NCBI GenBank assembly: GCA_029260295.1 | Contig: JAJDDN010000008.1 | Location: 682,001-746,000 of the forward strand | Reading direction: 5' to 3' | Origin: Phycisphaerales bacterium | GTDB lineage: Bacteria; Planctomycetota; Phycisphaerae; Phycisphaerales; UBA1924 | DNA length: 64,000 nucleotides | Shown here: positions 33,379-56,068 of the stretch, in pieces | Position numbering within the stretch: the stretch's first letter is position 1 | Layout: each line of letters starts with the position of its first letter | Notes under the pieces: generated by a model | The model's input: only the letters and a program-made list of their open reading frames with translations | What the model was told of the DNA's origin: nothing | Databases searched by the model: none | Position numbers and translations under genes: made by a program

Positions 33379-34839
33379 TCAGAACTTATATACAGCCTGG
33401 AAGTAAAAGAAATCAATATCTTCGTCTGCAGTGCCGCCAGAAGTATCCGTAAAGTACTGGCCCGCGAAGAAGTGCGAGTAGCCAGCCTGAAGGGTCAGAT
33501 GGCGATCCACGAGGTACTTGACGGTGATGTCGATTTCTTGGCCGACATCATCTGAGGCACCAACTGTGGTGGCCCTGAGGACCCCACCACCGGCGTTGTA
33601 GACTGAGTCAGCATCGCTTGAACGGCTGAAGACATGGTAATCCGCCTTGATCAAGAACTTCTTGTGAGGCTTGAAGGACAGACCTGCTGAAAAATCAATC
33701 ATGTTCTGGCGACCGATCAGGTCCATAAAGCCGTTGTAGGCGTGGCCGAGTGGGAAGAGCTGATTGAAGGTCTCGACATCGGTATCTCCTGCGGTGTCGT
33801 CACCAGAGGAATAGTCGAAGCCGACATACATCTTCGGATTCCAATCGGTATCCTTGAAGGCGTAGCTGAGCTGGGTGGCGAACATGTAGGCGTTGATATC
33901 GGCGGCACCAACATCGCCAAACTGGTAGGCTCCCTCGACATCGTATCCGAACCCGGAATCGCCGAACTTGCCAAAGAGGCGTCCGCCCAAGGTGTGGCGG
34001 TCTTCGATACCGGCTGTGCCGTTGTAGGTCCGTGTGGCGTCGTATTCGATTCCGAGGTAATACAGATCAACACCGATTGAGTTGTCTTCGCCGATCTTGC
34101 CTGTTGCGTAAATACCCCAGAAATCGGGGCCGAGACGCCAGTCGTTGAACTTGTACTTGGCGACTGGTGTGTAACGGGTCCAGAAGCCATCGATGCGCCA
34201 ATCGCTTATATTGACAATCGCACGCCCGCCATCCCATGAGCGTTGTGAGTTGGCCCAAGGGAGGGTGGAGACGAGGCGTTGTTTGCCAAAGGAAAGGCCC
34301 TGCCGCCCGAGGCGGATGGTGAGTTTGTCCTTTGAATCGCCGAATGGGAAAATAATATCAGCAAATGCGTTTTGCAGGTCGAGTTGATCGACATCGAGAC
34401 CGCGGCGGCTGCCCGCTAAGTCACGGTCGGTTGCCCAGGCGCTCTCGCCTTCGATGAAGATCCGGAAGTTGTCACCGAAGTGCCAGTCTGTGTAGAGTTG
34501 TAGACGGCCGAGCCCGAAAGTATCGTCCGCAGTTGGGGCCGGGGAGAATCCGAACGAGTTCCATGACTCGGTTCGATAGCGAAGTTCGCCGCCCATACCA
34601 ACCCAGTTTTCGCCATCATCTGAGAGATTATGGTGCTTGATATCGTCCCAGTAATCGTCAAAATTGGCCGGATCAAACTCTGACCAGTTCTCGTCAAAAC
34701 GAAGGGTTTTGAACTTTGGATAGGTCGCCGGCGTTGCATCATCCTGCGCGAGGGTTGCCGATGCAATAAATCCTACTGAACCGATCAATGCGGCTGTAGT
34801 CAGAGTTCGAAAGGTGTTCATGTTCTTTGCCTGTGTCAT
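33379..34839 (-). CDS. Outer-membrane porin, alginate-export (AlgE) family
   Basis: Protein of about 486 residues with a signal peptide (ending ASATLAQ), a short soluble segment and then a long run of amphipathic beta strands ending in an aromatic residue (AVYKF), as outer-membrane barrels do. The pattern GELRYRTESWNSF, LGRLQLYTDW and RLGRQGLSFGKQRLVSTLPW is typical of the alginate-export domain. The start at 34839 has GGAGG 5 bases upstream. It lies downstream of the HAO-like gene cluster on the same strand, separated by about 370 bases. Members of this family are often general anion or sugar porins in non-alginate organisms, so the substrate is open. Confidence 0.8.
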   Translation of the reverse strand: MTQAKNMNTFRTLTTAALIGSVGFIASATLAQDDATPATYPKFKTLRFDENWSEFDPANFDDYWDDIKHHNLSDDGENWVGMGGELRYRTESWNSFGFSPAPTADDTFGLGRLQLYTDWHFGDNFRIFIEGESAWATDRDLAGSRRGLDVDQLDLQNAFADIIFPFGDSKDKLTIRLGRQGLSFGKQRLVSTLPWANSQRSWDGGRAIVNISDWRIDGFWTRYTPVAKYKFNDWRLGPDFWGIYATGKIGEDNSIGVDLYYLGIEYDATRTYNGTAGIEDRHTLGGRLFGKFGDSGFGYDVEGAYQFGDVGAADINAYMFATQLSYAFKDTDWNPKMYVGFDYSSGDDTAGDTDVETFNQLFPLGHAYNGFMDLIGRQNMIDFSAGLSFKPHKKFLIKADYHVFSRSSDADSVYNAGGGVLRATTVGASDDVGQEIDITVKYLVDRHLTLQAGYSHFFAGQYFTDTSGGTADEDIDFFYFQAVYKF

Positions 34840-35210
34840 TGCAGCCTCCTGGCTTGCCAATGTTAAATCCCGCTTGGTGCACGCCGAACTCACGACGCTG
34901 ATCGCCCTGCGGGCGGATTATTTAACTTTGTACCTTGCTTCCAAGGCTTTGAGTCTAATTTGCAAAACTCTTGGTCTTCTTTATCTGTTTAACGGTGAGA
35001 TATTGGATCCAGGCCAAGCATTTAAAGGACAAGATTGTCTTTTTGTAACAAGAGCGCAAATAAACTCAGCTGGTCCAATAAATCTGACCACTATTCCCGA
35101 CCACCCCAGCTTGTGCTGGTGCATCACCCAAACTAATTTAGCAACGCCGTGCTGGTATTCCTCTGACGAACTGATTTGATCACAGGAAGAATTCCCGGAC
35201 AATCGAAGCA
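34840..35210. other. Intergenic region upstream of the porin gene
   Basis: About 370 bases, likely containing the porin promoter. It is more AT-rich than the surrounding genes. I see no clear hairpin, terminator or conserved operator. Confidence 0.4.
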
Positions 35211-35684
35211 TCAGGAACACCCCCCAGAACAAGCGGATGCACCCGGGGCGCCAGGGATTGAATCCGCGAGCTCGCAGAGTGCCTGGTAGTAGGTTTCATT
35301 GTCGAGCCCAACGAGGGTGGCACCGAAATGCTCGGCGTCTTCGTGGGAGACAATCTCGCCATAGTTGATAGAGGGGATGTGGTACGCAATGAGCAGCGGC
35401 CAGGCTTCTGGCTGCTGCTCGAAATATGGATGGATGAATAAACAGAACCCTGCTGATGGATGCTCGCCTAAAGCGATGGGCATCGCGAACTCACCCGACT
35501 GCAAGTGCTCGGCGTCGAACTTAATGCTTACAGGGTACCGAACAAAGGCTGCATCGTCGAGCATCTTAATAATCGTCTCGGCGTCGATGTACATCCCGTG
35601 CGATAGCCGGGCGTTCATCGCTTTGTCACCGAGATGATCTTTGAGCGCGACGCGTGCGTCTTGTTCGGTTAGCTGGCGTGCCAT
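35211..35684 (-). CDS. Hypothetical protein with CSGGCS tail, downstream of the HAO-like gene
   Basis: Unrecognised cytoplasmic-looking protein of 157 residues. AGGA 8 bases before the ATG supports the start. It has no signal peptide or membrane segment, and its C-terminus is ACSGGCS, a possible metal- or cluster-binding pair of cysteines. It follows the octahaem gene by 66 bases on the same strand without a visible terminator, so it is likely the last gene of that unit. It could be a maturation or sensing protein for the cytochrome module; nothing in the sequence proves this. Confidence 0.65.
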   Translation of the reverse strand: MARQLTEQDARVALKDHLGDKAMNARLSHGMYIDAETIIKMLDDAAFVRYPVSIKFDAEHLQSGEFAMPIALGEHPSAGFCLFIHPYFEQQPEAWPLLIAYHIPSINYGEIVSHEDAEHFGATLVGLDNETYYQALCELADSIPGAPGASACSGGCS

Positions 35685-35750
35685 GAGAGGGTCCTTTTCA
35701 AAGGTTCATCCACTTATTTATTGGGAACCAGTTTCCTGATTCCATCGCTC

Positions 35751-37196
35751 TTAGTTGTCCTTCTTGTAACGAGCTTTGAAGTCATCGGACGCTTTTTTGC
35801 GTGCCGCGGCTTCGCTGTCGTCCATTTTGCCCAGGAACCATTTATGGTCATCTGAGTTGAGGACTTCTTCAAGCTTGGCTTCGAGTGCATGAGCGGCATC
35901 AACGAGTTCTTTGTCACCCGAATGCAGACCGTCCTCGATGAGTTCTCTGAGTTCAGGTACAAACTCTGAGTACCAGTTCCGAGCGATCTCATAGGTGCCG
36001 TGCCAGTGTGTGTAATCGGGCGCCATCATCGCTGCTGCGTGACGGGCACGACGACCTTCGTGGTGCCAAAGCTCGAACCATGTGAAGTCGATCTTGTTGG
36101 CAAACGGTACCTGGCTCTTGAGTGGCTTGGCCAGTTTCATGAGCTCAACGCCCGGCTTGGTGAACTTGTTGTTGACCAAATCAAGAAGCCCGTCATATTG
36201 AATGTAGAAGTTCTCTACCCACTGAGTTTGGTGACAGCTCAGGCAGACATCCTTCATATTGTCGCGACGGACCTGCCATGGCACATTGGCACCTGGGAGG
36301 CCCATTTTTGCGTCAGAAACCTCTGGACGCACCGAGACGGGCGGGCGGTTATTCCAACTAATCCGCATGCCCACATCGTGAGTAACAGGCTGGTTCTTGG
36401 TTTCAGACATGTGACAGGTCGCACAAGTTGGTGCGGCCCAGTAGTCTTCGCCAACAATCCATTTTTCGTTATCCAGGTTCATTTCGTCTTGCTTGGAGAA
36501 GAAGTTGATGCCATGCTTGGATTCTTCGTAGATTTCTTTTTGTGGGTGGTCTGGACCGAGGTGGCACTTGCCACAGGTGTCCGGGTGACGGGCCTGCGCG
36601 ACTGAGAAGTCGTGGCGTGTGTGACACGCGTTGCATGAGCCTTCGGAGCCATCCGGGTTCAGGCGACCGATACCGGAGTTTGGATAGGTTGCTGGGTCGA
36701 GCTTGCCACCTGGAAGCACTTTAATTTCCGAGCCGTGGCACTGCCAGCAGCCGTTTACTGCGGCCGCAGAGACACCTTCTGGAAATCCACGGGTAACCAT
36801 CCCTTTATTGCCTTCAACGACCTCTGCAAGGACATTGTCGAGCGAACCAAGAATCCGACCAGCCTTTGCGTGGTGGGAATCTGCAAACTCGCCGACTTCC
36901 TTGGAGTGGCATCGTGCACAATCCTTTGGTGTCACGAGAATCGCGATGGTAACACCTTCGTGCTTGAATGCGTCAACATCATCTATATCAGCTTGGTGAC
37001 ATTCGTAGCAGCCAACATTACCGCGGTAGTGCTTGCTCGAACCCCATTGCTGATACAAACTTGGGTTGAGTTTTTGGTGGCACTCCAAACACTCTTTCGT
37101 CTGGCGTGACATCTCTGCTGGGGCGAAGATTTGTCCCATAGCCGACGAGGCGAGGGTGCAAATTCCTGCGACCAACAACAGTTGTTTGAACTTCAT
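35751..37196 (-). CDS. HAO-like octahaem cytochrome c
   Basis: Periplasmic protein of 481 residues with a signal peptide (ending SSAMG) and eight CXXCH sites (CLECH, CYECH, CARCH, CWQCH, CNACH, CGKCH, CATCH, CLSCH), the number and spread of hydroxylamine oxidoreductase (HAO) family enzymes. The fourth site would hold the catalytic haem. After the last site a conserved-looking PDYTHWHGTYEIARNWY segment (about 394-409) contains tyrosines in the region where HAO carries its haem-crosslinking tyrosine; whether one is equivalent needs an alignment. GGAG 6 bases upstream supports ATG 37196. It follows the NrfD-type gene by 14 bases. It could oxidise hydroxylamine or reduce nitrite or nitric oxide; the quinone module beside it favours a respiratory role. 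Confidence 0.88.
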   Translation of the reverse strand: MKFKQLLLVAGICTLASSAMGQIFAPAEMSRQTKECLECHQKLNPSLYQQWGSSKHYRGNVGCYECHQADIDDVDAFKHEGVTIAILVTPKDCARCHSKEVGEFADSHHAKAGRILGSLDNVLAEVVEGNKGMVTRGFPEGVSAAAVNGCWQCHGSEIKVLPGGKLDPATYPNSGIGRLNPDGSEGSCNACHTRHDFSVAQARHPDTCGKCHLGPDHPQKEIYEESKHGINFFSKQDEMNLDNEKWIVGEDYWAAPTCATCHMSETKNQPVTHDVGMRISWNNRPPVSVRPEVSDAKMGLPGANVPWQVRRDNMKDVCLSCHQTQWVENFYIQYDGLLDLVNNKFTKPGVELMKLAKPLKSQVPFANKIDFTWFELWHHEGRRARHAAAMMAPDYTHWHGTYEIARNWYSEFVPELRELIEDGLHSGDKELVDAAHALEAKLEEVLNSDDHKWFLGKMDDSEAAARKKASDDFKARYKKDN

Positions 37197-37210
37197 GATC
37201 ATCTCCTTTA

Positions 37211-38506
37211 TCACGGCGATACGCCCGCCGATTCTTGCATTGAACTCGATTGCTTGGCCTCAAAGATTGATGGGTCGGTGTGGTAGACCTTGTCCACCAA
37301 CAGATCGCCATAGAGCACGGGGATGGTTACCCGAACCAAGATTGTGTACATCAGTAACCCAAACGCCCAGATCCCGGTGCAGACCAAGACTTCATTGAGC
37401 GTGGGGACATATTCGACGATCTCGCCTAGGGGGGAAGGGATGAAGGCGGGGACAATGAGGCCCATGCCTTTTTCTATCCAGATCCCAACGATCATCGCGA
37501 GGCATGCCGCATTGAGAATCCAGCGGTTTCTGCTTGCCGGGGTGAGTAGCGCGATGAGTGCGAATGTATTGAGTGCGATTGCTGACCAGATCCAGGGAAC
37601 AAGTGCGGAGTGGCCATGGAGCCCAAAGAAGAGGTACTTAGCAGAGACCGAGTGGGAAGTCCCTGTGTAGAACTCGGTGAAGACTTCGGAGCCGAGCAGG
37701 AACATATTGATACCAAGGGCCACGGTAACGATCCCTTTGAGGGTTGAGATCGCTTTATCTGAGACGGGGTACCCGGTGCTGGCCTTGATGACCTGGAGAG
37801 TTAAAATAATGAGTGCGGGGCCCGCGGCAAATGCGGAGGCGAGAAATCTTGGGGCGATGACTGCGCTGTTCCAGAAGGGACGAGCACCTAGGCCCGAGTA
37901 GAGGAAGGCCGTGACCGTGTGGATACTGATGGCCCAAGCGATGGCAACGAACACGAAGGGGATATAGAACTTCTTGGTTGGCGTCCGCTTGTTGTAGGCA
38001 CACCAGATGAGATAGCCGCAGATGTGGAGGTTAAGAAGGAGGTAGCCGTTGAGGGCGATGACATCCCAAGTGAGGATCGAAATCGGGAAGTTGAAGCGGA
38101 GGAGCATGTGGTGGAAGCGGTCGGGGCGTCCGAGGTCTGCGGTAATAAAGAGCAGACACATGATGATTGCGACAACTGCTAGGAGCTCACCGAAGATCAC
38201 GAGGTTGTGAAGATCTTTATTCTTGTAGACATAGACCGGGATGACGAGCATCACCGCCGCAGCCGCGATGCCGACGAGATAGGTAAAGTTAGCAATGTAG
38301 AGTCCCCACGAGACTTGGTCGGTCATGCCTGTGGTCACAAGCCCTTGAACGAACTGCTTGGCGTAGGCGTTGAGCCCGAAGAGCGCAACGACCGAGAGAA
38401 GGAACATCCATGTGTAGTATTTCCAGTCGCCGACGAAACTCAGGCGGAAGCAGCGATAGAGAAACCGGGGGTATTCTCTGGCGAACTCTTTGATTGAATC
38501 GCTCAT
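37211..38506 (-). CDS. NrfD/PsrC/DsrP-type quinone-interacting membrane protein
   Basis: Polytopic inner-membrane protein of 431 residues with about ten helices. It shows the family pattern near helices 3-4, LLFITADLGRPDRFHHMLLR, where the Asp/Arg region lies by the quinone site. Such proteins exchange electrons between the quinone pool and a peripheral four-cluster Fe-S subunit, here encoded directly upstream with overlapping ATGA (38503-38506). Order (cytochrome, Fe-S, NrfD) resembles DsrJOP, Qrc and the core of alternative complex III rather than formate-nitrite NrfABCD. The partner enzyme appears to be the octahaem protein encoded next. Confidence 0.9.
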   Translation of the reverse strand: MSDSIKEFAREYPRFLYRCFRLSFVGDWKYYTWMFLLSVVALFGLNAYAKQFVQGLVTTGMTDQVSWGLYIANFTYLVGIAAAAVMLVIPVYVYKNKDLHNLVIFGELLAVVAIIMCLLFITADLGRPDRFHHMLLRFNFPISILTWDVIALNGYLLLNLHICGYLIWCAYNKRTPTKKFYIPFVFVAIAWAISIHTVTAFLYSGLGARPFWNSAVIAPRFLASAFAAGPALIILTLQVIKASTGYPVSDKAISTLKGIVTVALGINMFLLGSEVFTEFYTGTSHSVSAKYLFFGLHGHSALVPWIWSAIALNTFALIALLTPASRNRWILNAACLAMIVGIWIEKGMGLIVPAFIPSPLGEIVEYVPTLNEVLVCTGIWAFGLLMYTILVRVTIPVLYGDLLVDKVYHTDPSIFEAKQSSSMQESAGVSP

Positions 38507-39522
38507 GCGTCACCGCCGTTCACTGGATTGGTCGGGTTCGTTTCGTTGATCGGATCACGCTCGTCGAAGTAATAGAAGAATCTTGGGAGGGTCCCTACTT
38601 CTTGCTTGAGGACAAAGACGCGTTTGGATTCGAGGATCTTGCGGACCTCTGAGTTTGGATCGAGTACATTGCCGAACTTGCGGGCGCCGGTAGGGCAGAC
38701 TTCAAGACACGCGGGCATCTTGCCCTGACGGGTGCGGTGGAGACAGAAGTGACATTTCTCCATCACGCCTTTTTCACGCGGGCGGTTGGAAAGGTAGCTC
38801 ATGTCCGGGTTGATCTTGTCTTTGGGGATCGAAGGCGTGGCAAAGTTAAACCTGCGGGCCCAGTACGGGCACGCCGCTTCGCAATACCGGCAACCGATGC
38901 ACCAGTCGTAGTCGATGACGGTGATTCCATCTGGCTCTTGCCATGTTGCCTCGACCGGGCAGACCTTGACACATGGCGGGTTGGCACACTGGTGGCACTG
39001 GATCGGCATGTAGTAGTGGTCTTCTGAGGGAACAGTCGCGCGTTCGTAGTGGTGGTTGCCCTGCTCAATATCCGTGGTGCCACGGGGCATTTCCAATACT
39101 CGGATGTACTGGATCTCAGGGCTGCGGGACTGGTTGTTTTCTTCCACGCATGCATGGACACACTTGCGGCAGCCTATACAGCGGGTCAGGTTGAGAGCGT
39201 AAACGAACTCTACGCCGTCCATTGGTTTGTAATCACGGATTTCTGGTCGGACCTCGTATCGTTTCTCGACTGCATTGGAAATCCGTTCCAATGCGGCGGC
39301 CATGTCTTGGCCGTCCATTTCTTTGTAGTGTTTTTGGAGGAATCTGTCGACGGAGAACTCATCGGTATCGGTCAGCTCCCGAAGAGGGCTCAATGAGGCG
39401 GCGATCGCGGCTACGGCCCCTGTTGCGGCTGTCCCGGTACGCAGGAAGCTGCGGCGTGTCATGCCTGGACGGGCCGCGTAATCGCGGGTCTTCTCAGGCT
39501 GGTTCATGATGGGTAACTGCAT
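38503..39522 (-). CDS. Tat-exported four-cluster ferredoxin subunit (NrfC/DsrO/HybA-like)
   Basis: Protein of 339 residues. A twin-arginine signal (TRRSFLRTG, RR at about 23-24) precedes the hydrophobic stretch, so the folded protein is exported. Sixteen cysteines form four [4Fe-4S] motifs: CIGCRKCVHAC, CHQCANPPCVKVC, CIGCRYCEAAC and CHFC-x11-CLEVC. The start is ATG 39522, which overlaps the stop of the tetrahaem gene as TAATG and has GGGAG upstream. It would wire the NrfD-type membrane subunit to the cytochromes. Confidence 0.92.
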   Translation of the reverse strand: MQLPIMNQPEKTRDYAARPGMTRRSFLRTGTAATGAVAAIAASLSPLRELTDTDEFSVDRFLQKHYKEMDGQDMAAALERISNAVEKRYEVRPEIRDYKPMDGVEFVYALNLTRCIGCRKCVHACVEENNQSRSPEIQYIRVLEMPRGTTDIEQGNHHYERATVPSEDHYYMPIQCHQCANPPCVKVCPVEATWQEPDGITVIDYDWCIGCRYCEAACPYWARRFNFATPSIPKDKINPDMSYLSNRPREKGVMEKCHFCLHRTRQGKMPACLEVCPTGARKFGNVLDPNSEVRKILESKRVFVLKQEVGTLPRFFYYFDERDPINETNPTNPVNGGDA

Positions 39523-40232
39523 TAGTGATCTCCCCCGTGTCCTGTATCGCCGTCGGATCCATGGCCTTGGCCCTCCTTGAGACGCCATCGCTGAAGCGGG
39601 TTGCGTTCATCGATGATGTCTAGGGCACCGCTCTGCTTGCCCATCCGGAGCGTGTTTGGCCCGGGGAGTGGTGGCATCGGGTCATATGCAGGGCTGTGAG
39701 GATCGTGGCACTGCGTACATGAAAGCTTGATTGCAGGACCCAAGTCGGTGTTCCAATATCCAATGGTCTTGCCGTGTACGCCTTTTTGCCAGTCCCGGTA
39801 GATTGGGCCATGGCATTGAGCACAGAGTTGCTCAACATGATCAAACCCGATTGTTTCATCATTCCGGAGCGTCAGTTTTTCTCGATCAGTCAAATCATGG
39901 CAGTTCAAACAGACATCATTGGACCCATGCGAAAGCTTGATATCCATGTGCTGAACCAGCCCCCTCTTTGGATCACGCGTTTTCATATCAATGAAGTGAC
40001 AGTGATTACAACGCATCTCCATTGATTCCAACACGATAATCGGCGGATCGGTAAGAGCAACACGCCAAACACCTGGGACGATCTGTTGTGCACGGACTGC
40101 AGGCGAGTTGTTCTGAGGCACTTCTGTGGCGGTGCCGGTCATAAACAAAGCGACGGCAGTGATCAGAAATCCGATCCCTACGAAATATCCTGCTACAGGA
40201 ATTTTGTTCTCATTTTCATCCGTTCGGGGCAT
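39522..40232 (-). CDS. Membrane-anchored tetrahaem cytochrome c
   Basis: Protein of 236 residues with one N-terminal membrane helix (about 14-34, VAGYFVGIGFLITAVALFM) and four CXXCH sites: CNHCH, CLNCH, CAQCH, CTQCH. The C-terminal tail is His/Gly/Asp-rich (GHGSDGDTGHGGDH). It is the first gene of the module and would carry electrons between the Fe-S/NrfD unit and a periplasmic partner such as the octahaem protein. AGGA 9 bases upstream supports ATG 40232 over the frame start at 40280. I do not find a precise family name for it. Confidence 0.85.
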   Translation of the reverse strand: MPRTDENENKIPVAGYFVGIGFLITAVALFMTGTATEVPQNNSPAVRAQQIVPGVWRVALTDPPIIVLESMEMRCNHCHFIDMKTRDPKRGLVQHMDIKLSHGSNDVCLNCHDLTDREKLTLRNDETIGFDHVEQLCAQCHGPIYRDWQKGVHGKTIGYWNTDLGPAIKLSCTQCHDPHSPAYDPMPPLPGPNTLRMGKQSGALDIIDERNPLQRWRLKEGQGHGSDGDTGHGGDH

Positions 40233-40323
40233 GATCGATCGTCCTTCTGATGGAACTCCAAACCCAATTGCCGACATCACTCTCCTTTATCATACTTACC
40301 GTACAACTAGAATTTCTACGCTT

Positions 40324-40351
40324 TAGCGATAAATTTATCCCTTTATCGCTA
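40324..40351 (-). promoter_or_regulatory. Palindromic operator candidate upstream of the HAO-like module
   Basis: TAGCGATAAA at 40324-40333 and its exact complement TTTATCGCTA at 40342-40351 form a 10-bp dyad with an 8-base spacer. Inside it GATAAATTTATC (40328-40339) is itself a perfect palindrome, and another TTTATC lies at 40286-40291. The site is about 90 bases before the tetrahaem start codon, fitting a regulator of the whole module. Confidence 0.6.
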
Positions 40352-40658
40352 TTGAGATCGGTTCTCATCATACGAATTGTCACCTGAGATGGACATAAAT
40401 ACATTTATTTCAAGACTCTCCGTCTTATCAATCCCCCACCGCTTATCTATTATATACAACTAAATTGATTATTTGTTATGGATTTGTTTAGGCAATTACT
40501 GCGACAGCAGAATCTGCTTGTCCACAAAGGGCCTCCATTTTGACCTGGTTTCGCAGCAGCATTGAACTTATTCACAACGAATTGAAAGACAAATAGCTGT
40601 GATTCATTGAATCTGAGGCTTGTTTCTTGGCCCTGAAACTGACGAGCATCCACTGGAC
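40352..40658. other. Intergenic region between the cytochrome module and the dockerin gene terminator
   Basis: About 300 bases, AT-rich toward 40380-40480. It likely carries the promoter of the minus-strand cytochrome operon. No gene is supported. Confidence 0.4.
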
Positions 40659-40752: not shown

Positions 40753-43116
40753 TTATGGACAACCAGATTCAAATGCACTCAGGAATCCTGCAATATCAAA
40801 GAAATCAAACTGGCCATCGTTGGTGAAATCTGCGATCGGATCCTGCACTCCAAAGGCCGTTAGGAAAGTGGAGATGTCGAAGAAATCAAGATCGCCATCA
40901 GCGTTTAAATCAGCACGGCAGGTCACCAGAACATCGATATGATCCTCATACATAACAGCAACCGCGCTCTGCCCGAGTTCCAGCCCAGTGTAATCAATGT
41001 TCGTAAATGAACCAGAAACGGTTTGGGCGGTCAGGATAGTAAATACATCTCCTAGCGAAACAGAGAACCCGTCAATCAATCCAACTTCAAGAGTTCCGGA
41101 CACGCTTGCTGAACCGAGCACTTGTAGCTGATCATGTTCAATGCCGTTGTTGTCGCCGGCAAGATCGATCCGAAGCTTCGAGGTACTCGCCAAAGTGAGG
41201 CTCGCGACAGATGCCTGTCCTACGCCTTCGAAGAAATCACCGAACGATATCGCCCCATGATTCACAAGCCCGACATTCTGAAGATCCGCTCCGCTGGTCA
41301 TGTTCATCGTTTTAGCTGTATGAACCGCGACAATGGAGCCATCGCCTGAAAACTGGGCACCGGCATCAACCCGAGAGTGCCCGTCTATTTCCAGTGCTCC
41401 AGAGATGGTGTTTACACCCGTATCAACAAACCGGACCCAATCTGCGCTATTGGCGCCAGATGCCCGGAGTTGCGATGTGCCCTGAGTCGAAAAATCTGCA
41501 CCCAATATGAGCCCCAAGCCTCGGAGTCTTCCCGAGTTCATAGAGAGCTGTGACGGGACTCCCTCTAGTGCTCCAAAGATAATGCCACCGTTGGTTTCGA
41601 GCACTTCTCGGATGCCCGCCCCGTCACCAACATACATATCGCCGCCAAAGAACTGGTATCCACCAGAGTTATGCGACGAGGAGAGATCTCCCAACTCGGC
41701 ACGGATCACCCCACGCGTTGCAAGATCAAACCCGCCCAGGTTCAGATGATCGAAGGCCAGCGTGCTGCCGTCCGCAATGATGGTGCCATAGTTGAGCACT
41801 ACCGGCGTAATCGATCCACTCCCTTGGATCAAAGATTCGTTCTCAAGAATCCGCCCATGAATCGTGCCGCCATCTAGATTGATGGTGCCGGTTGAGTTTG
41901 TCCATCTGACCATCGGGACTGTTTGCATGACATCGAGCGTGCCATCAATATTGAGCACCGAGTCAAAGTCATTGGACCCGAACCGTTCGATGAACTCGAC
42001 ATCAAGCACGAGCGATGAACCTGAAGCGATGTTCACGGTCATCGCACCAAACCCGTCGAGATCAAACTGACCGCCAACCCCTGTGTCGATGGTGGTCGTG
42101 CCCCCATTGACATTGAGTGTCGTTGAGTTGACTCCGAAACGGATAAGCGCCCCGTCGTCGTTGATCGGAGAGACGCTCAGCGAATCAAAGATAATGCTCG
42201 TCGCATCAATATTCAGTTCGCTGTCACTCCCCATCTCTCCCGTTCCACGCAGCGCGATAAACGGTGCCCGCAACACACTCTGGCGATTGATCGTCATTGA
42301 TCCGTACAGATCGATGACTGGGGCATCAAGGACCGCATGGTCAGGGCCGGCCACTACCCCACCAAACAGACTCACATCAGAGTTCTGCGAACCCACAATA
42401 GCGTTCTCGCTCAGAATTGTCGAATCGCTTGAGATACTGAGCGATCCACCAACCGAACCCCTGTATGGTATTTGGATATCAATGGTCGTCCCAGGCCACG
42501 CGATCAGGGCCGAATCTGGACTCGTCAAGTCGAGGCGTGAAGTGCTCGACTGCGTTCGCGAGATGAGGATGGTATCACCATTGGCCCCTCCAATATCTGC
42601 CCAGATCGCGCCGTGGACAATATCAAGATCACCGGTCGTCGAGTTCATCTCAATAGTCCCGACGCCAAGTATCGCACTCCCCAGTTCGATTGAAACTGAA
42701 TCATCAAACTGCGCAAGCCCATCGTTCAATATCAGAAACGCACCGTTCCTGATGAGCAGTGAATCTGTATCAAAGTCATTCAAAGCCGCAGTCTCATTGA
42801 CCACCAGCGTAGAACTGCCGCCATTGATCTGCGTATCGCCATTGACAAACATCGAGAACCCATGGCTGTACACGCCCGCACCGTTCAGGATATTGAGTGT
42901 TCCCGTGACCGTATTAGCGGCCAAAAGCACCTCGACAGAGTTGCCAGAAACGGTCGCTGAATCAACGATCGAGTTCGGGTACTGACCCGCAGGCCCGAAC
43001 CACAGATTGTCGTTATCCCAATCGCCACTCCCCCCCGCCCAGTTAAAGATATCTGCTGATGCGGCCGTGCCCGTTACCGCGATCATCGTCAGTATGAGTG
43101 TTGATTTGTGTGTCAT
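40753..43116 (-). CDS. Large exported beta-helix-like protein with dockerin-type C-terminus
   Basis: Exported protein of 787 residues. A signal peptide (about 1-20, ending TAASA) is followed by FNWAGGSGDWDNDNLWFGP, the start of the repeats found in autotransporter-like and planctomycete surface proteins. The body is low in Cys and Lys, rich in Gly/Ser/Asn/Ile, and consistent with a long beta-solenoid. The C-terminus holds two EF-hand-like loops, DLNADGDLDFFDISTFLTAF and DFTNDGQFDFFDIAGFLSAF, and ends ESGCP, the dockerin-like ending common in Phycisphaerae. GAGGAAAA upstream supports ATG 43116. No cohesin is encoded nearby. It is probably a cell-surface or secreted structural or adhesion protein. 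Confidence 0.8.
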   Translation of the reverse strand: MTHKSTLILTMIAVTGTAASADIFNWAGGSGDWDNDNLWFGPAGQYPNSIVDSATVSGNSVEVLLAANTVTGTLNILNGAGVYSHGFSMFVNGDTQINGGSSTLVVNETAALNDFDTDSLLIRNGAFLILNDGLAQFDDSVSIELGSAILGVGTIEMNSTTGDLDIVHGAIWADIGGANGDTILISRTQSSTSRLDLTSPDSALIAWPGTTIDIQIPYRGSVGGSLSISSDSTILSENAIVGSQNSDVSLFGGVVAGPDHAVLDAPVIDLYGSMTINRQSVLRAPFIALRGTGEMGSDSELNIDATSIIFDSLSVSPINDDGALIRFGVNSTTLNVNGGTTTIDTGVGGQFDLDGFGAMTVNIASGSSLVLDVEFIERFGSNDFDSVLNIDGTLDVMQTVPMVRWTNSTGTINLDGGTIHGRILENESLIQGSGSITPVVLNYGTIIADGSTLAFDHLNLGGFDLATRGVIRAELGDLSSSHNSGGYQFFGGDMYVGDGAGIREVLETNGGIIFGALEGVPSQLSMNSGRLRGLGLILGADFSTQGTSQLRASGANSADWVRFVDTGVNTISGALEIDGHSRVDAGAQFSGDGSIVAVHTAKTMNMTSGADLQNVGLVNHGAISFGDFFEGVGQASVASLTLASTSKLRIDLAGDNNGIEHDQLQVLGSASVSGTLEVGLIDGFSVSLGDVFTILTAQTVSGSFTNIDYTGLELGQSAVAVMYEDHIDVLVTCRADLNADGDLDFFDISTFLTAFGVQDPIADFTNDGQFDFFDIAGFLSAFESGCP

Positions 43117-43229
43117 GGTGTTTTCCTCTTCCGTATGCGTGTTGTTCAGTTCGTTCGTCGAATGATGTTGATGAAGAATTCCTCTTCTTCGTCGAATCTG
43201 ATTCAATGACCAAATCCCACTGATATGGC

Positions 43230-43262
43230 CCCCCTTCAATGCGAGGAACGCATTGAAGGGGG
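43230..43262. repeat. Long hairpin between the kinase and dockerin genes
   Basis: Perfect 14-bp inverted repeat, 43230-43243 with 43249-43262, loop AGGAA. There is no T-run on either side, so it is either a weak terminator for the kinase gene or a stabilising hairpin in the leader of the dockerin gene. Confidence 0.6.
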
Positions 43263-46885: not shown

Positions 46886-48889
46886 TTATGGACATCCTCC
46901 TGCAAAGTCTACAAGGAACTCCGAAATATCGAAGAAGTCGAGCACGCCATCACCGTTCGAATCGACAGCGAGATCGCCTGCAGCGAACAACACAAGGAAC
47001 TCACTGATGTCAAAGAAATCAACATTCCCATCACTGTTCAGGTCTGCTGCGCAGCCCGCGAGGATGGGCAGCGTGGCGTTGTGATTGGTATGAATCCTCA
47101 CTGCATAGTTTGATGCCTCTTCCATAGTCAGAGGTTCATTGTTCTCGATGTGGCATCCCATGCACGCATAATCAAGGGTGACGAATGATTCGTCATTCTC
47201 TTGATTCCAGTACAAGCCGCCGTTGTCTTCGTAGACATTGTCGGCCGCGAATATTGGTGCGTCGGTGATGTTGAAGATATGGGCTCGGATGTCGCCCTTG
47301 TACATATTGACCGCGACAGCGTTCTTGCCCATATGTGGCATATGGCATTCGATACAAGCGACATCTTCCATTTCATCAACCAGATAGAAGCTGTTGCTCG
47401 CGTCGCCCTCGTGACAATCCGTGCAGGACGCGATCAGGCCGCCGTTGCCTTGGATAGTCGAGCGGTGCGGATCATGGCATGTGTTACAGGTCAGCATCAC
47501 ATCGTGTGGCGAGTGTGCAAAGTCCTCGGCCTGCTGGTGATGCCTCGTGAATCCACCTTTCCACGGGATTCGGAACTCAGAATCACGGTAGTGGCATTCG
47601 GCACATGATTTGCCTTTGACAGGGAGCATGTCTGTTGGGTTTGCAACATGGTCGCTGCCAGGGCCGTGGCATGCTTCACAGCGGACGCCGTCCTCTTCCC
47701 ATGTCCCGATCAACCCTGGAAGATCAAACTGGTGGCCTTCGGGTTGGTACCCGGTCGTGTGACACCTGCCGCAGTTGTAAGGCTTGCCAATTTCGCCGGC
47801 GTGGTACGGGACCCATTCCTCGGTTGCGAGGTTCCATTGAGTTCTGTCATCCACATCACCGGTATAGATGTAGCCGTCAGGATCAACAAACCGGGCTTTC
47901 CAGTTGTAGTTCCCGATGACATACTCGATGTCGGTCCATTCAAGCTGCTCTCCATAGACGACTGGGAGCGGAGGTGTTGGCGAATGTGGCCATGCATCGG
48001 CTGGTGGTTGTTCACCTGCGACATGCAACAGCTTGTATGGGTGAGCTGAATCAACATAAGCCTCGAAGAAATCTGGTGTTGGCCAGTGCTCGTGGCACTG
48101 CTTGCAAGCCTGATCGCCGACATACTCTGCGATGGGGAATCCATCTTGCAAGTAACGGCCAATATCTGCCGCACCTTGGTCTTGACCGTTGACCAACAAC
48201 CAGCTTGTCATTTGCGTGCTTGGCTGTCCAAATCGGATCTTGTGGAGAAGCTCCCAAGGGTTCCCGGAGGCGACATCTGTGACATACTGCGGGTTTATGG
48301 CGTCACCGAAGTTAATCTCGGTGCCGTCGTCCCCGTGGCAACTGGCGCAGTTGTAGTACCCACCGGCGGCCTGGTATCCCCAACGGCCGACAGCACTGTC
48401 ACCAACAAACTCATTGTTTGCGTCGATGTACTGATCTGTATCAATCACTGATTGCCGAAGGAATGTCACGATGTTGTTGATGTCTTCATCGGAAAGCCCG
48501 GAATTGCCGTAGCCGTGACCAAAGGTCCCGGAATCTGTTTTGATCAAATCAAACATTTCTTCGGTGGTCATGGTTGAACCAAACACGCCACCGATTCCTG
48601 TGAAGTGCGAGCCTGATCCGTAGGCTCCATCAACACCCTTGTAATCCCAGCCGTGGCATTCTTTGCAACGCCATGTGGTTGAACCGGTTTTCTGTCCGAC
48701 TGCTGGGTAGAGCGGGTGATCCCCGGTTGGCTCGGGTACATTTGCAGCCGCCCACCATTTGTCGTAGAGCTGACCGCCCAGAACGCGCCCGATCACTTCT
48801 TGATCGCTTGATTCGGCTGCTGTGATGCTGGCCCCTCCTCCGATCACAAGCAGTACTAGGGTCGAAATTGCCATTCTTCCTAACTTCAT
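46886..48889 (-). CDS. Exported decahaem cytochrome c with dockerin-type C-terminus
   Basis: Protein of 667 residues with a signal peptide (about 1-25, ending ITAA) and ten CXXCH sites (CKECH, CASCH, CKQCH, CGRCH, CEACH, CAECH, CNTCH, CTDCH, CIECH, CMGCH). The first two lie in a class-I-like cytochrome region with an FLRQSV helix, the rest in a compact octahaem-like block. The C-terminus carries two EF-hand-like loops (DLNSDGNVDFFDISEFLVLF and DSNGDGVLDFFDISEFLVDF) and ends GGCP, as in the large surface protein at 40.7-43.1 kb. GAGG 7 bases upstream supports the start. The tail suggests display or anchoring outside the cytoplasmic membrane. Substrate unknown. Confidence 0.88.
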   Translation of the reverse strand: MKLGRMAISTLVLLVIGGGASITAAESSDQEVIGRVLGGQLYDKWWAAANVPEPTGDHPLYPAVGQKTGSTTWRCKECHGWDYKGVDGAYGSGSHFTGIGGVFGSTMTTEEMFDLIKTDSGTFGHGYGNSGLSDEDINNIVTFLRQSVIDTDQYIDANNEFVGDSAVGRWGYQAAGGYYNCASCHGDDGTEINFGDAINPQYVTDVASGNPWELLHKIRFGQPSTQMTSWLLVNGQDQGAADIGRYLQDGFPIAEYVGDQACKQCHEHWPTPDFFEAYVDSAHPYKLLHVAGEQPPADAWPHSPTPPLPVVYGEQLEWTDIEYVIGNYNWKARFVDPDGYIYTGDVDDRTQWNLATEEWVPYHAGEIGKPYNCGRCHTTGYQPEGHQFDLPGLIGTWEEDGVRCEACHGPGSDHVANPTDMLPVKGKSCAECHYRDSEFRIPWKGGFTRHHQQAEDFAHSPHDVMLTCNTCHDPHRSTIQGNGGLIASCTDCHEGDASNSFYLVDEMEDVACIECHMPHMGKNAVAVNMYKGDIRAHIFNITDAPIFAADNVYEDNGGLYWNQENDESFVTLDYACMGCHIENNEPLTMEEASNYAVRIHTNHNATLPILAGCAADLNSDGNVDFFDISEFLVLFAAGDLAVDSNGDGVLDFFDISEFLVDFAGGCP

Positions 48890-49589
48890 TACTGTACCTC
48901 ATTTCTCAAGAATTTTGATATAGGACAACCCTCTCGGCTACGAAGCCGAAGAGCCAATTCTTGATGTCCTGTCCACAACGAAGTTTCTCGGCTGATCCCG
49001 AGACCACTACGCATTCTGGATTCTCGAATTAATCATCTAATCAGTGCATTTTGTTTCCAGTCCAACATCTCAAACCGGATTGCGCGTCTTATCTCCACAT
49101 TGAAATTACAGAGCCGACACAACACATGTGCGGATTCATGGGTTCGATTGAAGTGACCGTCTGGCTTGAAGAACTGGAAGAAGATGTAGCCGAGTGCGTA
49201 CTGAATTTATTAAACCGTAGTTCATTCAGTGTCATCTAAGCATTTTTCAGTTGCAAACTGAATGCCAACGATACGCATTAAAGCGTTGCACCAATCTTAC
49301 CATCCGCTTGGAACATCATGATTCTGGTTCTCTGCTTTAAATGATTTAAACATGGCCTCCACTGGCCGCGTTCACCATCCGTTCGAATAGTGAGGATCAA
49401 TCATTCCCATCGACAAGAAGCTTGATTTTCCACTGCCCCCATCTCTGAGAAGCGGACACGGAACAACTGCTTAAACAAGCGTTAATCCATGACCCCCACG
49501 CATTGAACCGTTCGCGTTTGATAAGAATCCACCCTAAGAAAGCTCATTCAAATAGATCTCATTGCCCTGATCTACATGAACAACTCGGG
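48890..49589. other. Long intergenic region upstream of the decahaem gene
   Basis: About 700 bases without a supported gene. Near the decahaem start it contains small hairpins (about 48931-48953, and CTCGG/CCGAG at about 48987-49003) that may lie in its leader. A perfect 15-base palindrome TTTAAATGATTTAAA lies at 49336-49350. A 62-codon frame at 49051-49239 has no ribosome site. Confidence 0.45.
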
Positions 49590-52046
49590 TTATTGTGAAG
49601 CAGAACTTGTTGAATCCTGAGAGTGCGGAGTACGGAATTCATTTCTTGCCGCGCACATCGAGACAAAGAATAGTTCTGTTGCGAACCAGATGTATAACCA
49701 GGTGTGCCCGCCGGAACCTGAGCCGTACGAGTGAATGGAGGAACCAGTTACATAGTTTACACCATAGAAAGTCCAGATTACGCATGCGAATCCGGCTATT
49801 GCCCCCACCGCCAATCCGAAGCCTCGGATCCAATCGGCGTACTTCGCGTGGAATAGGCACACATAGAAAACTATAACGACCAGTGACCAAGATTCCTTCG
49901 GATCCCACCCCCAGAATCTACCCCACGACTCCGCAGCCCACACGCCTCCCAATATTGTGCCTGCGGTCAGCAAGATGACACCACCCTGCATCGAGCGAGT
50001 TAGTGCGGCCAGAACCCTTGATGAGATCTCATTGCTCTGAGGAAGAACGATCGACCTGAGAAGGTAAATATGCGCCATGACCGCGGCCAGCAACATGAAT
50101 CCAAACGACGACACAATCGTCAGCACATGGACAACAATCCAGTAGTTTGATCGGAGTACCGCGGGGAGTACGCCAGTTTGATCTGCGATGGGAACAAACA
50201 TCGACAACAAAAGACAAAGCTGACACGCCCCGACGCCGGCCAAAACGCAAGCCTTGCTTGACTCCCGTAACCCACCCACCGCTCCTAGGAGAATGGCGAT
50301 GAGCCCTATCCATAACAGCACTTCGTATGTATTGGAAACGGGGATATGCCCTAAGAACATGAACCTCAAGTAGTGTCCCAATAGCTGCTCGCTGATCGAC
50401 CACACAATGCATACGCCGGTGCATAATCTGAGCCATGAATGACCGTACTTTGCCCACACCACAATAAACAGTAAGCAGATCCAGTTGGCATACATTGCCA
50501 TTTTCCATGGCGAGCGGTAGTTATACACGAGCTCTAGGGCCACGGCGTTGCTCGCATGGCCTTGTAATTCCCAATGACGCTGCATCGCCGCTGCGAGTTC
50601 GCTTGCCGCCCCGTTCGGAACGACGCCACCAAGATACGCGGATTCCAGTTTGGAGAAAGCGGCTTGAATGTTGTCCGGGACCATGTCTCCATGAGTATCC
50701 ATATCAACCAAAGATTGACCTTCAATTGATTCCGCTCCGATTGATTTCCTAAAGCTCTCTGGGAATCTGACAAGCAGTGTGATTCGCCGCTGGCTGTCCA
50801 TCAGATCGACTTCCAAAGATGACGGGCGGTACCCATGCTGCGAGATCATCTTTGATTGGATTTCGACCGAGAGTTGATGGATACTGTCATTCTCCATGAG
50901 CTGCGCCGCTGAGAAATGGTCTCTCGCTAGAGCCAAACCAAGGCGTGCTTTGAGCTTGTAGTTGGCCACCAGAACTACAGGCTCATCAAATAAATCAGAA
51001 TGCCTGAACAGAAGATCAGCAAATAGATCGAGATGATCCCTGCCTGCCAAGAGCTCTGAGGCATGGCCGCTTGGCCAGTGTGTGCTGCCCGTGAGCTCTG
51101 AAGCAACAATCCTTGCGTACGAATCCAGAGGCATGACCCGGCCCTGATACTGTAAAGGAACATCAGCGAATGACCCTTTCCACCCATCTCCTATCTGGCT
51201 TGGGGTCAACGCGGGCCTGGCGAAAATCAACGCAAAGACAATCAGCCCGAACACCATGGGCGGCATCCAGCCCCTGGCGACTCTTCCGCCCTGAGCTTCT
51301 CGCGAGTCGTGTGGAACTCTTTGAGTCGCACGCCCGTCCAACGATGCCCAGAGCAAAATACAAACCCCGGCGAGCAGCATCCAGCATCCGGTATACAAGA
51401 ATGGGACTCCTGGGTCTTTCATCAACCCAAAGCGGATCGCCCCGGCCCCATCGGGTCCCAATAAAGAAACCCTCCAACCCATGTGCGAGAATGCTTTGGC
51501 ACTGCTGACCGTATGCTTTGACGAGGATGAATCATTGAATTTAAGGTTGACATCGGCCTGCTCTGATAGCGTAATCGATGTCCCCGGGTAATGATCGATC
51601 CGATAGTTGAGAAGCTCAATTGATACAGGCGAAACACCGCTTCGTAGAACAGTGCTTGGCTGATCCATCTGGGCTGAAACAACCTCATCAACCCTGTACA
51701 AAGAGGTCACAATTCCTGAAACGATGATGATTACGATCGAAAGATGCACGGCTACAAACCCTGCGTGCCCCACCTTCAACGGGAAACGAAGGCCTATCGA
51801 AGCCAGCAGGCTCAGGCAGATGCAAGCCATGAGTACCCGTTGAAACCACGAGTTGAACACAAGATCCATCGCCGCTTGTGAACCGAATGCGTATCTGATC
51901 AAAGACCCAAAGACGATTGTTTCAATGGTGATGACAAGAATCAGCACGGCGAACTTTGCCGATCCAAAAAATGACATGGCCTTCTGGAGACTCTCTTCAA
52001 ACCGGACTGGTGTGGATTCGGTTGGCATCAGACCATTTGTGCTCAT
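49590..52046 (-). CDS. ccsBA: System II cytochrome c synthase CcsBA (ResB-CcsA fusion)
   Basis: Membrane protein of 818 residues that exports haem and attaches it to CXXCH motifs. The N-terminal ResB/CcsB part has several helices and a periplasmic segment containing YQGRVMPLDSYAR, a pattern of fused CcsBA proteins. The C-terminal CcsA part has a multi-helix bundle and the tryptophan-rich haem-handling motif ESWGRFWGWDPKESWSLV. Fusion of the two parts is also found in Bacteroidota, Helicobacter and anammox planctomycetes. It lies 19 bases after the redoxin gene and ends a minus-strand unit that begins with the NapC-like gene, so it is probably dedicated to, or co-expressed with, the adjacent multihaem proteins. 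Confidence 0.92.
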   Translation of the reverse strand: MSTNGLMPTESTPVRFEESLQKAMSFFGSAKFAVLILVITIETIVFGSLIRYAFGSQAAMDLVFNSWFQRVLMACICLSLLASIGLRFPLKVGHAGFVAVHLSIVIIIVSGIVTSLYRVDEVVSAQMDQPSTVLRSGVSPVSIELLNYRIDHYPGTSITLSEQADVNLKFNDSSSSKHTVSSAKAFSHMGWRVSLLGPDGAGAIRFGLMKDPGVPFLYTGCWMLLAGVCILLWASLDGRATQRVPHDSREAQGGRVARGWMPPMVFGLIVFALIFARPALTPSQIGDGWKGSFADVPLQYQGRVMPLDSYARIVASELTGSTHWPSGHASELLAGRDHLDLFADLLFRHSDLFDEPVVLVANYKLKARLGLALARDHFSAAQLMENDSIHQLSVEIQSKMISQHGYRPSSLEVDLMDSQRRITLLVRFPESFRKSIGAESIEGQSLVDMDTHGDMVPDNIQAAFSKLESAYLGGVVPNGAASELAAAMQRHWELQGHASNAVALELVYNYRSPWKMAMYANWICLLFIVVWAKYGHSWLRLCTGVCIVWSISEQLLGHYLRFMFLGHIPVSNTYEVLLWIGLIAILLGAVGGLRESSKACVLAGVGACQLCLLLSMFVPIADQTGVLPAVLRSNYWIVVHVLTIVSSFGFMLLAAVMAHIYLLRSIVLPQSNEISSRVLAALTRSMQGGVILLTAGTILGGVWAAESWGRFWGWDPKESWSLVVIVFYVCLFHAKYADWIRGFGLAVGAIAGFACVIWTFYGVNYVTGSSIHSYGSGSGGHTWLYIWFATELFFVSMCAARNEFRTPHSQDSTSSASQ

Positions 52047-52065
52047 CGCCGAACAGTACCTTTAT

Positions 52066-53067
52066 CTATTCAAATGGCTCATTCAACAATCTACCAATGG
52101 ATTGACGGTAGTAGCTCATCGCCTGATCAACATCGCCCATCGCTTCATTGACAAGCCCGAGGTAGTACAGCGTGCGGGCAGGATCTGGATTCAGAACCAA
52201 CGCTTTCTGGAGGACAACCCGAGATTCTGGATAGTCGCCCTGGCGGAACAGCATTATTCCTTCGAGGAGCATCGCCCGGCGGTGTTCAGGATCTGCACTT
52301 TGAACCTGACCGATGTAGGTTGCCGCATCTGAAACCCGTCCTAGATGCAGGTACAAATCGGCGAGATCCAGCCGGGTATCCTGGCTCTCTTGATCGTACT
52401 CGAGTGCCACGATGAGTTCTTTTTCTGCTGTTTCATAGAGCCCTTTGTCTTGCATTAGCCGAGCAACCGCACGGTGGCGTGAGGCCACGCTCTTTGGAGA
52501 ACTTGTAGGGAGGCTCCGTGCTTTGAGATGTTCCTGGAGCGCCGCATCATCCAACTGGCCAATCGCGTGCTGTATGTACCCCTCCAGAACATAGGGATAG
52601 TTTGAGCTATGCGTCGAGAGAGAATGGATCAGCTTACCATTGGTATTGACGATCAGTGTTGTTGGAAATGCGATGAGACCGAGATCCCCATACAGGGAAC
52701 GCTCTGGATCAACCGCGAGTGTTGCCCGGATTCTTTTCTCTTTCCAGAACTCTTGAAAGTACTCTGAATGATCCGGATTGCCAGAAATAACAACCAGGTT
52801 CACTGCCTGGTCTTTCATTTCACTGACCACCATACTCGCGTCAGCGATGGCGCGTTCTGATCCCTGCTGTTTGGCGATTACATAGATGAACACCGTTGTA
52901 CGATCGCTGTACACCGTATTAGTGATTGCTTTGCCTTGGTCGGACCGGAGCGTGAACTCAGGCATCTGATCGCCGGGCTGTATCTTCTTTCCGGGATCCG
53001 CCTGAGCATTCCCGACTGCGAAAGCAATGGTGATACAGAGTCTTGATAGAGTCGATTGTATTTTCAT
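52066..53067 (-). CDS. Periplasmic redoxin-fold protein lacking active-site cysteines, with TPR tail
   Basis: Exported protein of 333 residues with a signal peptide (ending GNAQA). Residues about 30-165 have the AhpC-TSA/TlpA thioredoxin fold, including GDQMPEFTLRSDQGK and the cis-proline strand IAFPTTLIVNTNGKL, but the position expected to hold CXXC reads YVIAKQQGSERA and the mature protein contains no cysteine at all. The remaining part is TPR repeats. Its ATG overlaps the stop of the 15-haem gene (ATGA), and CcsBA follows. It may act as a binding or scaffold protein in cytochrome c maturation rather than as a redox enzyme. Confidence 0.85.
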   Translation of the reverse strand: MKIQSTLSRLCITIAFAVGNAQADPGKKIQPGDQMPEFTLRSDQGKAITNTVYSDRTTVFIYVIAKQQGSERAIADASMVVSEMKDQAVNLVVISGNPDHSEYFQEFWKEKRIRATLAVDPERSLYGDLGLIAFPTTLIVNTNGKLIHSLSTHSSNYPYVLEGYIQHAIGQLDDAALQEHLKARSLPTSSPKSVASRHRAVARLMQDKGLYETAEKELIVALEYDQESQDTRLDLADLYLHLGRVSDAATYIGQVQSADPEHRRAMLLEGIMLFRQGDYPESRVVLQKALVLNPDPARTLYYLGLVNEAMGDVDQAMSYYRQSIGRLLNEPFE

Positions 53068-55963: not shown

Positions 55964-56068
55964 GTCTTACAATCCTGTTCTTCCCGCCTTTTCATTCTTG
56001 CACCTGTCTTTTATGTTCTGTGACTTGAAAGGCAAGAAAGAGAAAGCCTAAAATGCGCCGAGGTTAAA
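55964..56068. promoter_or_regulatory. Divergent promoter region between the NapC-like and second 15-haem genes
   Basis: About 105 bases, the only space between two divergent cytochrome genes, so it must contain both promoters. GAGGTTAAAATG at its right end gives the ribosome site of the plus-strand gene. I cannot assign clear -35/-10 elements. Confidence 0.45.

Follow-up and report, generated by a model that had tools for sequence, protein, structure and literature searches.

What does an octahaem cytochrome of the hydroxylamine oxidoreductase (HAO) family do when it is encoded together with a quinol-type membrane module? The question is posed by a 64,000-nucleotide stretch of a Phycisphaerales bacterium (GenBank assembly GCA_029260295.1, contig JAJDDN010000008.1, positions 682,001 to 746,000; hereafter the window), in which five minus-strand genes succeed one another between 40280 and 35211: TETRA, FES, NRFD, OCC and SMALL (Table 1). 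We consider it fairly probable that this unit reduces nitrite with electrons from quinol, as the step following the nitrate reductase Nap, with ammonium as the likelier product. The proposal draws on what the DNA itself offers, namely the gene set, the cofactor motifs, the predicted fold, the lack of a crosslink tyrosine in alignments and the linkage to nap in relatives, and its strongest support comes from the pairing with nap, the reductive-type active site and the activity of a protein from Beggiatoaceae.

OCC belongs to the HAO family and appears to lack the oxidative hallmark

An initial annotation of the window had described the octahaem protein as HAO-like, and both sequence search and predicted fold indeed place OCC in the HAO family rather than in another multihaem family. 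All eight of its haem motifs are CXXCH, without the CXXCK of the active-site haem in NrfA and ONR, and the motif cysteines and histidines are invariant across 142 aligned rows, except for C42, which is kept in at least 90% of them. Its best PDB relative by structure and by sequence is the hypothetical multihaem protein 4qo5, found first in the sequence search (E 5.3e-49 with the single sequence and 1.9e-64 with a 15-row profile) and followed by the reducing HAO-like protein HAOr (6h5l) and HAOs, both at about 1e-18 with the single sequence and about 1e-22 with the profile. An AlphaFold2 (AF2) model built from the 142 rows (pLDDT 94.6, pTM 0.88) matches 4qo5 at 8.3e-19, with 26% identity in the structural alignment, HAO at 6.1e-11 and HAOr at 8.1e-11, as well as HOX and HDH; an earlier model from 15 close rows was discarded as poor (pLDDT 53.2). 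All 11 fold matches at E 0.001 are 4qo5, HAO, HAOr, HOX or HDH entries, and the comparisons with ONR (E 0.087 or worse) and NrfA (E >1) are not significant.

The nearest folds, 4qo5, HAO and 6h5l, bear on two further readings of the enzyme. We take 4qo5 to come from the sulfur-reducing archaeon Ignicoccus hospitalis, which lends some weight to a sulfur-compound reductase, acting on tetrathionate, sulfite or polysulfide and fed by a Dsr-like quinol module, the octahaem cytochromes of Ignicoccus having no established role (PMC4429474); no OTR- or MccA-type-named entry, however, occurs among the 11 fold matches or the 50 rows listed. With 6h5l close by, the same enzyme and electron path could also yield nitric oxide (NO), as in anammox HAOr, which is reported to convert nitrite to NO (PMC12758564, PMC12485887), and a NorB-like protein may then reduce NO to N2O.

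The initial annotation had pointed to residues 394-409 as the segment in which a P460 crosslink tyrosine might lie, and none is found there: in the multiple alignments the crosslink column is tryptophan (W404) in all 85 close rows and all 43 nearer relatives, and tyrosine in four of five HAO/HDH-type rows. Close rows and loci are here those scoring >640 bits against the window OCC, a proxy for the tree clade described below and not the tree itself. The row L246, by eye similar to 6h5l, likewise carries tryptophan. His405, beside W404, is present in 80 of 85 close rows, and either alignment register gives the same verdict because neither column 404 nor column 405 holds tyrosine. A global profile alignment of OCC with HAO/HDH misaligned the C-terminal part, and the statement on tyrosine therefore rests on the multiple alignments. 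D222, H223 and H234, which are presumably HAO pocket residues, are retained in all 85 close rows. OCC thus appears to be devoid of the hallmark of oxidative HAOs; oxidative members have been described with the crosslink tyrosine and reductive ones without it but with a histidine at the key site, the reductive form being predicted in most species outside the anammox group (PMC12758564).

In a quick tree of 108 of the 208 rows, in which long branches were flagged among the distant ones, the window OCC falls within a 65-row clade (SH-aLRT 99), and an 8-row HAO/HDH group is found elsewhere. The initial annotation had left the choice between reductase and oxidase undecided; a nitrite reductase is favored since W404 replaces the crosslink tyrosine and NapA is a recurrent neighbor. 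It is highly improbable that OCC works in the opposite sense, oxidizing hydroxylamine or hydrazine and feeding electrons into the quinone pool: NrfD modules can in principle run in either direction and the native Beggiatoaceae protein discussed below oxidizes both compounds in vitro, but the lack of a crosslink tyrosine in the alignments and the co-occurrence of OCC with NapA argue against it, no search having been made for genes of ammonia oxidation or hydrazine synthesis.

A quinol-type module probably replaces the NapC-type partner

NRFD passes the curated DsrP equivalog cut-off (420.8 bits vs. 350), shows nine hydrophobic segments by a plain hydropathy plot and has three PDB matches: 6f0k and 8k9e, both named polysulphide reductase NrfD, and subunit C of ACIII (6btm). 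The 16 cysteines of FES sort by eye into four [4Fe-4S] motifs, accompanied by the twin-arginine motif TRRSFL; its best family, DsrO, is below cut-off (175.5 of 200 bits), and its PDB relatives include the NrfC protein 2vpw, 6cz7 and ACIII subunit B (6btm). TETRA has a single N-terminal hydrophobic segment and stays below every curated cut-off, with 14.9 of 24.1 bits for NapC/NirT, 13.7 of 134.2 for NrfH and 18.1 of 100 for DsrJ, the last being a trihaem family. The unit proteins do not reach the curated NrfC and NrfD cut-offs, nor those of the Qrc families (QrcD 43.2 of 570 bits, QrcC 140.9 of 400). DsrM and DsrK are not among the five genes of the unit, the gene maps and the rest of the genome not having been searched for them.

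The earlier description of the module as DsrJOP/Qrc-like is therefore borne out for its DsrP-type membrane subunit and not for DsrO, DsrJ or QrcD. The accompanying view, that a quinone module stands where a NapC-type protein would be expected, is supported by the low NapC/NirT score of TETRA. Qrc, DsrMKJOP and NapC-linked HAO were each considered as a home for the unit and ruled out by the family cut-offs.

The DsrP score of NRFD also speaks for the sulfur-compound reductase introduced above, as do the proposals of tetrathionate or polysulfides as an alternative role for a similar four-gene locus (PMC5276818) and of sulfur reduction by Desulfobacterota HAO-family proteins (PMC9213671). Set against this is the recurrence of NapA beside OCC, in gene maps that label only genes resembling the queries, dsr and other sulfur genes being neither among those queries nor sought in the genome itself; on balance we find a sulfur substrate quite unlikely.

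Module and NapA recur beside OCC relatives

Counting more distant relatives as well, the window OCC has matches in 88 of 294 planctomycete genomes and in 192 of 395 genomes from the phylum of a Desulfobacterota metagenome-assembled genome (MAG) at 1e-20, and at 1e-10 in 27 of 40 genomes in the phylum of locus L121 and 11 of 191 in that of L129. The latter locus is titled Epsilonproteobacteria and shares its phylum set with two Bdellovibrionales MAGs; the label seems wrong. A scan of named genomes returned at least 573 relatives, and the titles of the best 80, which were kept, include Planctomycetota, Verrucomicrobia, Nitrospirae, Gammaproteobacteria (with Ca. Thioglobus and a Solemya symbiont), Bdellovibrionales, Acidobacteria and Scalindua, among others.

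Among 92 non-duplicate close loci, NRFD or FES is found in 56 and NapA in 28, with 20 loci holding both NapA and module and 28 neither. In a stricter set, limited to the 56 close loci that extend at least 5 kb to either side, the module is present in 37 (complete in 35), NapA, counted when within 7.5 kb of OCC, in 18, and both in 14. The neighborhood of OCC and module exceeds chance. In the mapped loci of Planctomycetota and Verrucomicrobia the module lies upstream of OCC; it is downstream in L107, L118, L120, L125, L127 and L129 and divergent in L105, and the link between the two therefore outlasts rearrangement. More distant octahaem genes of Desulfobacterota (L260-L263) are followed downstream by TETRA, FES and NRFD, then by a tetrahaem protein and NapA; of these the tree includes just L260 (as L213), which it places in the sister group. 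Two diverged second copies of OCC (L047 and L048, genomes G019 and G192), 55% and 54% identical to the copy in the window, adjoin FES and NRFD relatives and possibly represent a second version of the unit.

Other relatives are paired with a different quinol complex. Cytochrome b is encoded immediately upstream in each of L051-L054, L056-L059, L264 and L265, with a Rieske match in 6 of the 10, and NapA is also present in L052, L053 and L056; L055 has neither cytochrome b nor a Rieske match. The same pairing occurs inside the OCC clade itself, to which two rows from Calditrichota, L121 and L173, belong: the extended locus of L173, termed L273, reads NapA-G-H, OCC, Rieske, cytochrome b. A Thioglobus locus with NapA nearby (L124) also falls inside the clade. 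With the NrfD module beside some relatives and Rieske/cytochrome b beside others, it follows that the type of enzyme is constant and the quinol module exchanged.

The fifth gene is less regular than the rest. SMALL has no Pfam match at E 10, no NCBIfam match and no PDB match, and a search confined to OCC loci gave 35 matches, 33 of them distinct, which within those loci adjoin OCC modules or NapA. It is found in 29 of the 92 close loci, 28 of them with module, and in 20 of the 56 well-flanked ones, all with module. The initial annotation had made its reading depend on conservation of the neighboring genes, and this holds for the four redox genes (NRFD, FES and TETRA accompany OCC in 49 of the 92 close loci) and only partly for SMALL, seen in 20 of the 37 well-flanked module-bearing loci. 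The unit occurs without a SMALL match in Ca. Scalindua (L099:7968-9491) and in G239 (L046:9191-10669); in the family of G239, HDH was above the curated cut-off in 4 of 4 searched genomes.

Nitrogen and respiratory genes of the same genome

The genome encodes one OCC at E 0.001 and, on the same contig (G000:C8 424-427 kb), a 776-residue NapA-like protein with a Tat-type start, for which NapA is the best family at 680.5 bits, below the 904 cut-off. A tetrahaem protein adjoins it, and the flanking genes resemble, by eye, molybdenum-cofactor genes. NrfA is absent at the family cut-off (best PF02335 match 19.9 bits, cut-off 24.1), as are Hcp and cytochrome cd1, all in an assembly that is 92% complete and makes such absences soft. 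The aa3- and cbb3-type oxidases are joined by a third COX1-family protein (479 residues), encoded with a cytochrome c in a two-gene set (L254:590-2847), which may be a divergent, NorB-like NO reductase. This set and the lack of Hcp would suit NO as the product of OCC, whereas the COX1-family protein matches no NorB model or PDB chain, two thermophiles bearing a similar locus ammonify nitrate, and relatives have been shown or proposed to form ammonium (see below); release of NO is, in our judgment, unlikely.

Among planctomycete genomes, clear NrfA (>150 bits) is found in 0 of 12 with module-linked OCC, 3 of 4 with module-free OCC and 3 of 9 without OCC; among named genomes, represented by 45 of the best 80 loci and none of the three duplicate loci, it is found in 3 of the 24 with module-linked OCC and in 3 of the 21 with module-free OCC. 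Both sets pooled, 9 of 61 OCC genomes have NrfA. Strict replacement, suggested by the first set, was rejected on the second, and the contrast is weak.

Organization of the unit and its surroundings

The five genes named in the initial annotation are all present in the order and at the place it gave, on the minus strand; its start of the unit, at 40400, had to be moved to about 40280. Overlaps of 4 bases join FES to NRFD and NRFD to OCC, and a gap of 66 bases separates OCC from SMALL. The longest FES start (39588) would overlap TETRA by 67 bases, and the later ATG at 39507, leaving a 14-base gap as in the initial annotation, is the likelier one. TETRA starts with GTG or, alternatively, with the ATG at its codon 17, and OCC carries a probable signal peptide.

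Table 1. Genes of the unit, with positions in the window
Gene	Predicted product	Position	Strand	Size and features
TETRA	Tetrahaem c-type cytochrome	39522..40280	-	252 aa, 4 CXXCH
FES	Tat-type ferredoxin, four [4Fe-4S] clusters	38503..39588	-	361 aa, 16 Cys + TRRSFL
NRFD	NrfD/DsrP-type membrane protein, predicted quinone site	37211..38506	-	431 aa, PF03916 8e-41
OCC	Octahaem cytochrome c, HAO fold, predicted catalytic subunit	35751..37214	-	487 aa, 8 CXXCH
SMALL	No known family or hydrophobic segment, possible accessory or maturation factor	35211..35684	-	157 aa

On the same strand, 317 bases past SMALL, lies an alginate-export-type porin (33379-34893), which may or may not belong to the unit, and upstream, at 40753-43239, a repetitive, secreted-looking protein of 828 residues with a dockerin-like end by eye and no Pfam match. 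A second multihaem cluster, possibly for extracellular electron transfer, occupies 46886-57574: it contains, at 46886-48889, a protein with 10 CXXCH motifs, an MtrC-like domain and a GC-type dockerin; at 49590-52046, a protein whose match to CcsB stays below cut-off; and, further, a pair of DmsE-like proteins with 13 CXXCH motifs each and a NapC/NirT-type protein that has five.

Proposed mechanism and its standing

For the nitrite reductase proposed here, we infer electron path, direction, substrate and product as follows: quinol would be oxidized at NRFD, the electrons would travel via the four FES clusters and then the anchored TETRA to OCC, and the active-site haem of OCC would reduce the nitrite made by NapA from nitrate. 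The design would be that of NrfABCD, except that a crosslink-free HAO-fold octahaem protein would stand in for NrfA and a tetrahaem cytochrome for NrfB. More broadly, and tentatively, as we put the chance that all its parts hold together somewhat short of even, we suggest that HAO-fold octahaem reductases make up a widespread branch of nitrate ammonification that has drawn little notice and that keeps the enzyme while swapping the quinol module: NrfD/Fe-S/tetrahaem, Rieske/cytochrome b (in the sister clade, and in Calditrichota falling inside the clade) or no module close by. SMALL would then serve many NrfD-type units as a dedicated factor, and the NrfD type would be a complete, possibly energy-conserving quinol:nitrite oxidoreductase such as has yet to be purified.

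Several points weigh against a nitrite reductase. The best structural relative of OCC has the presumed sulfur-reducing origin given above, nap in the same genome is 290 kb away from the unit, 15 of the 56 well-flanked close loci lack both the module and NapA, replacement of NrfA is not strict (3 of 36 module-linked vs. 6 of 25 module-free OCC genomes) and the COX1-family protein beside a cytochrome c leaves NO as a possible product. The native Beggiatoaceae protein BOGUAY_0691 reduces nitrite, in support of the proposal, and also oxidizes hydroxylamine and hydrazine, and its recombinant form showed reduced nitrite activity (PMC6449678). The thermophiles T. dismutans and D. thermophilus, whose similar locus beside nap, lack of NrfA and growth by nitrate ammonification (PMC5276818) count in favor of the proposal, also possess Hcp and OTR, so that the locus is not the sole candidate, and Deferribacter desulfuricans combines nap with hao but does not get past nitrite (PMC6896113). 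In the literature searched, no assay of a module-linked OCC member was found.

How anaerobes with Nap and without NrfA turn nitrite into ammonium is left open in the available text of PMC5276818 and PMC6896113. If the proposal is true, nrfA-based surveys overlook nitrogen retention, and annotation as hydroxylamine oxidoreductase suggests nitrification where the opposite occurs; a swap of quinol modules round one enzyme would, moreover, make the energetics of HAO-type respiration testable. Neither the arrangement nor the idea is new. What is added here is the wide spread, the active-site and fold evidence, the SMALL family and the exchange of modules, and searches of one open library returned no earlier description of the planctomycete unit.

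Comparison with known systems

A nitrite role for Hao beside nap has been proposed in Deferribacter (PMC6896113) and Caldithrix (PMC5317091), with other or unknown quinol links. The epsilonHao of Caldithrix abyssi (Cabys_2556, PMC5317091), compared by description only, shares with OCC the octahaem architecture without tyrosine, a place beside nap and the lack of NrfA; its quinol link is instead Rieske/cytochrome b, as in L273. BOGUAY_0691, the orange octahaem cytochrome of Guaymas Beggiatoaceae, is encoded downstream of napAB and is sister to SUP05 proteins, and no NrfD module is described for it in the available text, on which this comparison rests (PMC6449678). In the anammox Rieske/b-3 complex, too, an octahaem HAO-like protein, Kuste4574, is associated with a quinol complex, there Rieske/cytochrome b instead of NrfD, and its activity is described as untested (PMC12485887). 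With DsrMKJOP the unit has the DsrP-type membrane subunit in common, whereas the DsrJ and DsrO cut-offs are missed and the cytochrome here is tetrahaem; the NapC/NrfH-type tetrahaem partner of epsilonHao/HURM systems is not matched by TETRA. Other NrfD clusters with other partners have been described in Planctomycetota MAGs (PMC10732223), and an NrfD operon repressed by nitrate (PMC11896075) has no shown link to the unit.

The closest precedent is found in T. dismutans and D. thermophilus, where a four-gene locus likewise encodes a HaoA-homologous multihaem protein, an NrfD protein, a 4Fe-4S protein and a second cytochrome c and lies two genes from napMADGH; a coupling to nitrate or nitrite reduction was proposed for it and nitrite reduction hypothesized, with sulfur compounds as the alternative (PMC4911364, 2016; PMC5276818, 2017). 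Likened by gene content and locus-tag order and not by sequence alignment, and read towards nap, its order equals that of the window: cytochrome (0609), Fe-S protein (0608), membrane protein (0607) and HaoA-like protein (0606). There, two unknown periplasmic-type genes and then nap follow, whereas in the window SMALL comes next and nap is far off; in several relatives nap does adjoin the unit. The thermophile complex was described as cytoplasm-facing on account of its missing signal peptides (PMC4911364), in contrast to the Tat motif of FES and the probable signal peptide of OCC. In its overall logic the unit resembles E. coli NrfABCD, in which electrons pass from quinol through NrfD, a four-cluster Fe-S protein and a multihaem carrier to nitrite reductase (PMC12285233), with an HAO-fold octahaem enzyme in place of pentahaem NrfA and a tetrahaem carrier in place of pentahaem NrfB.

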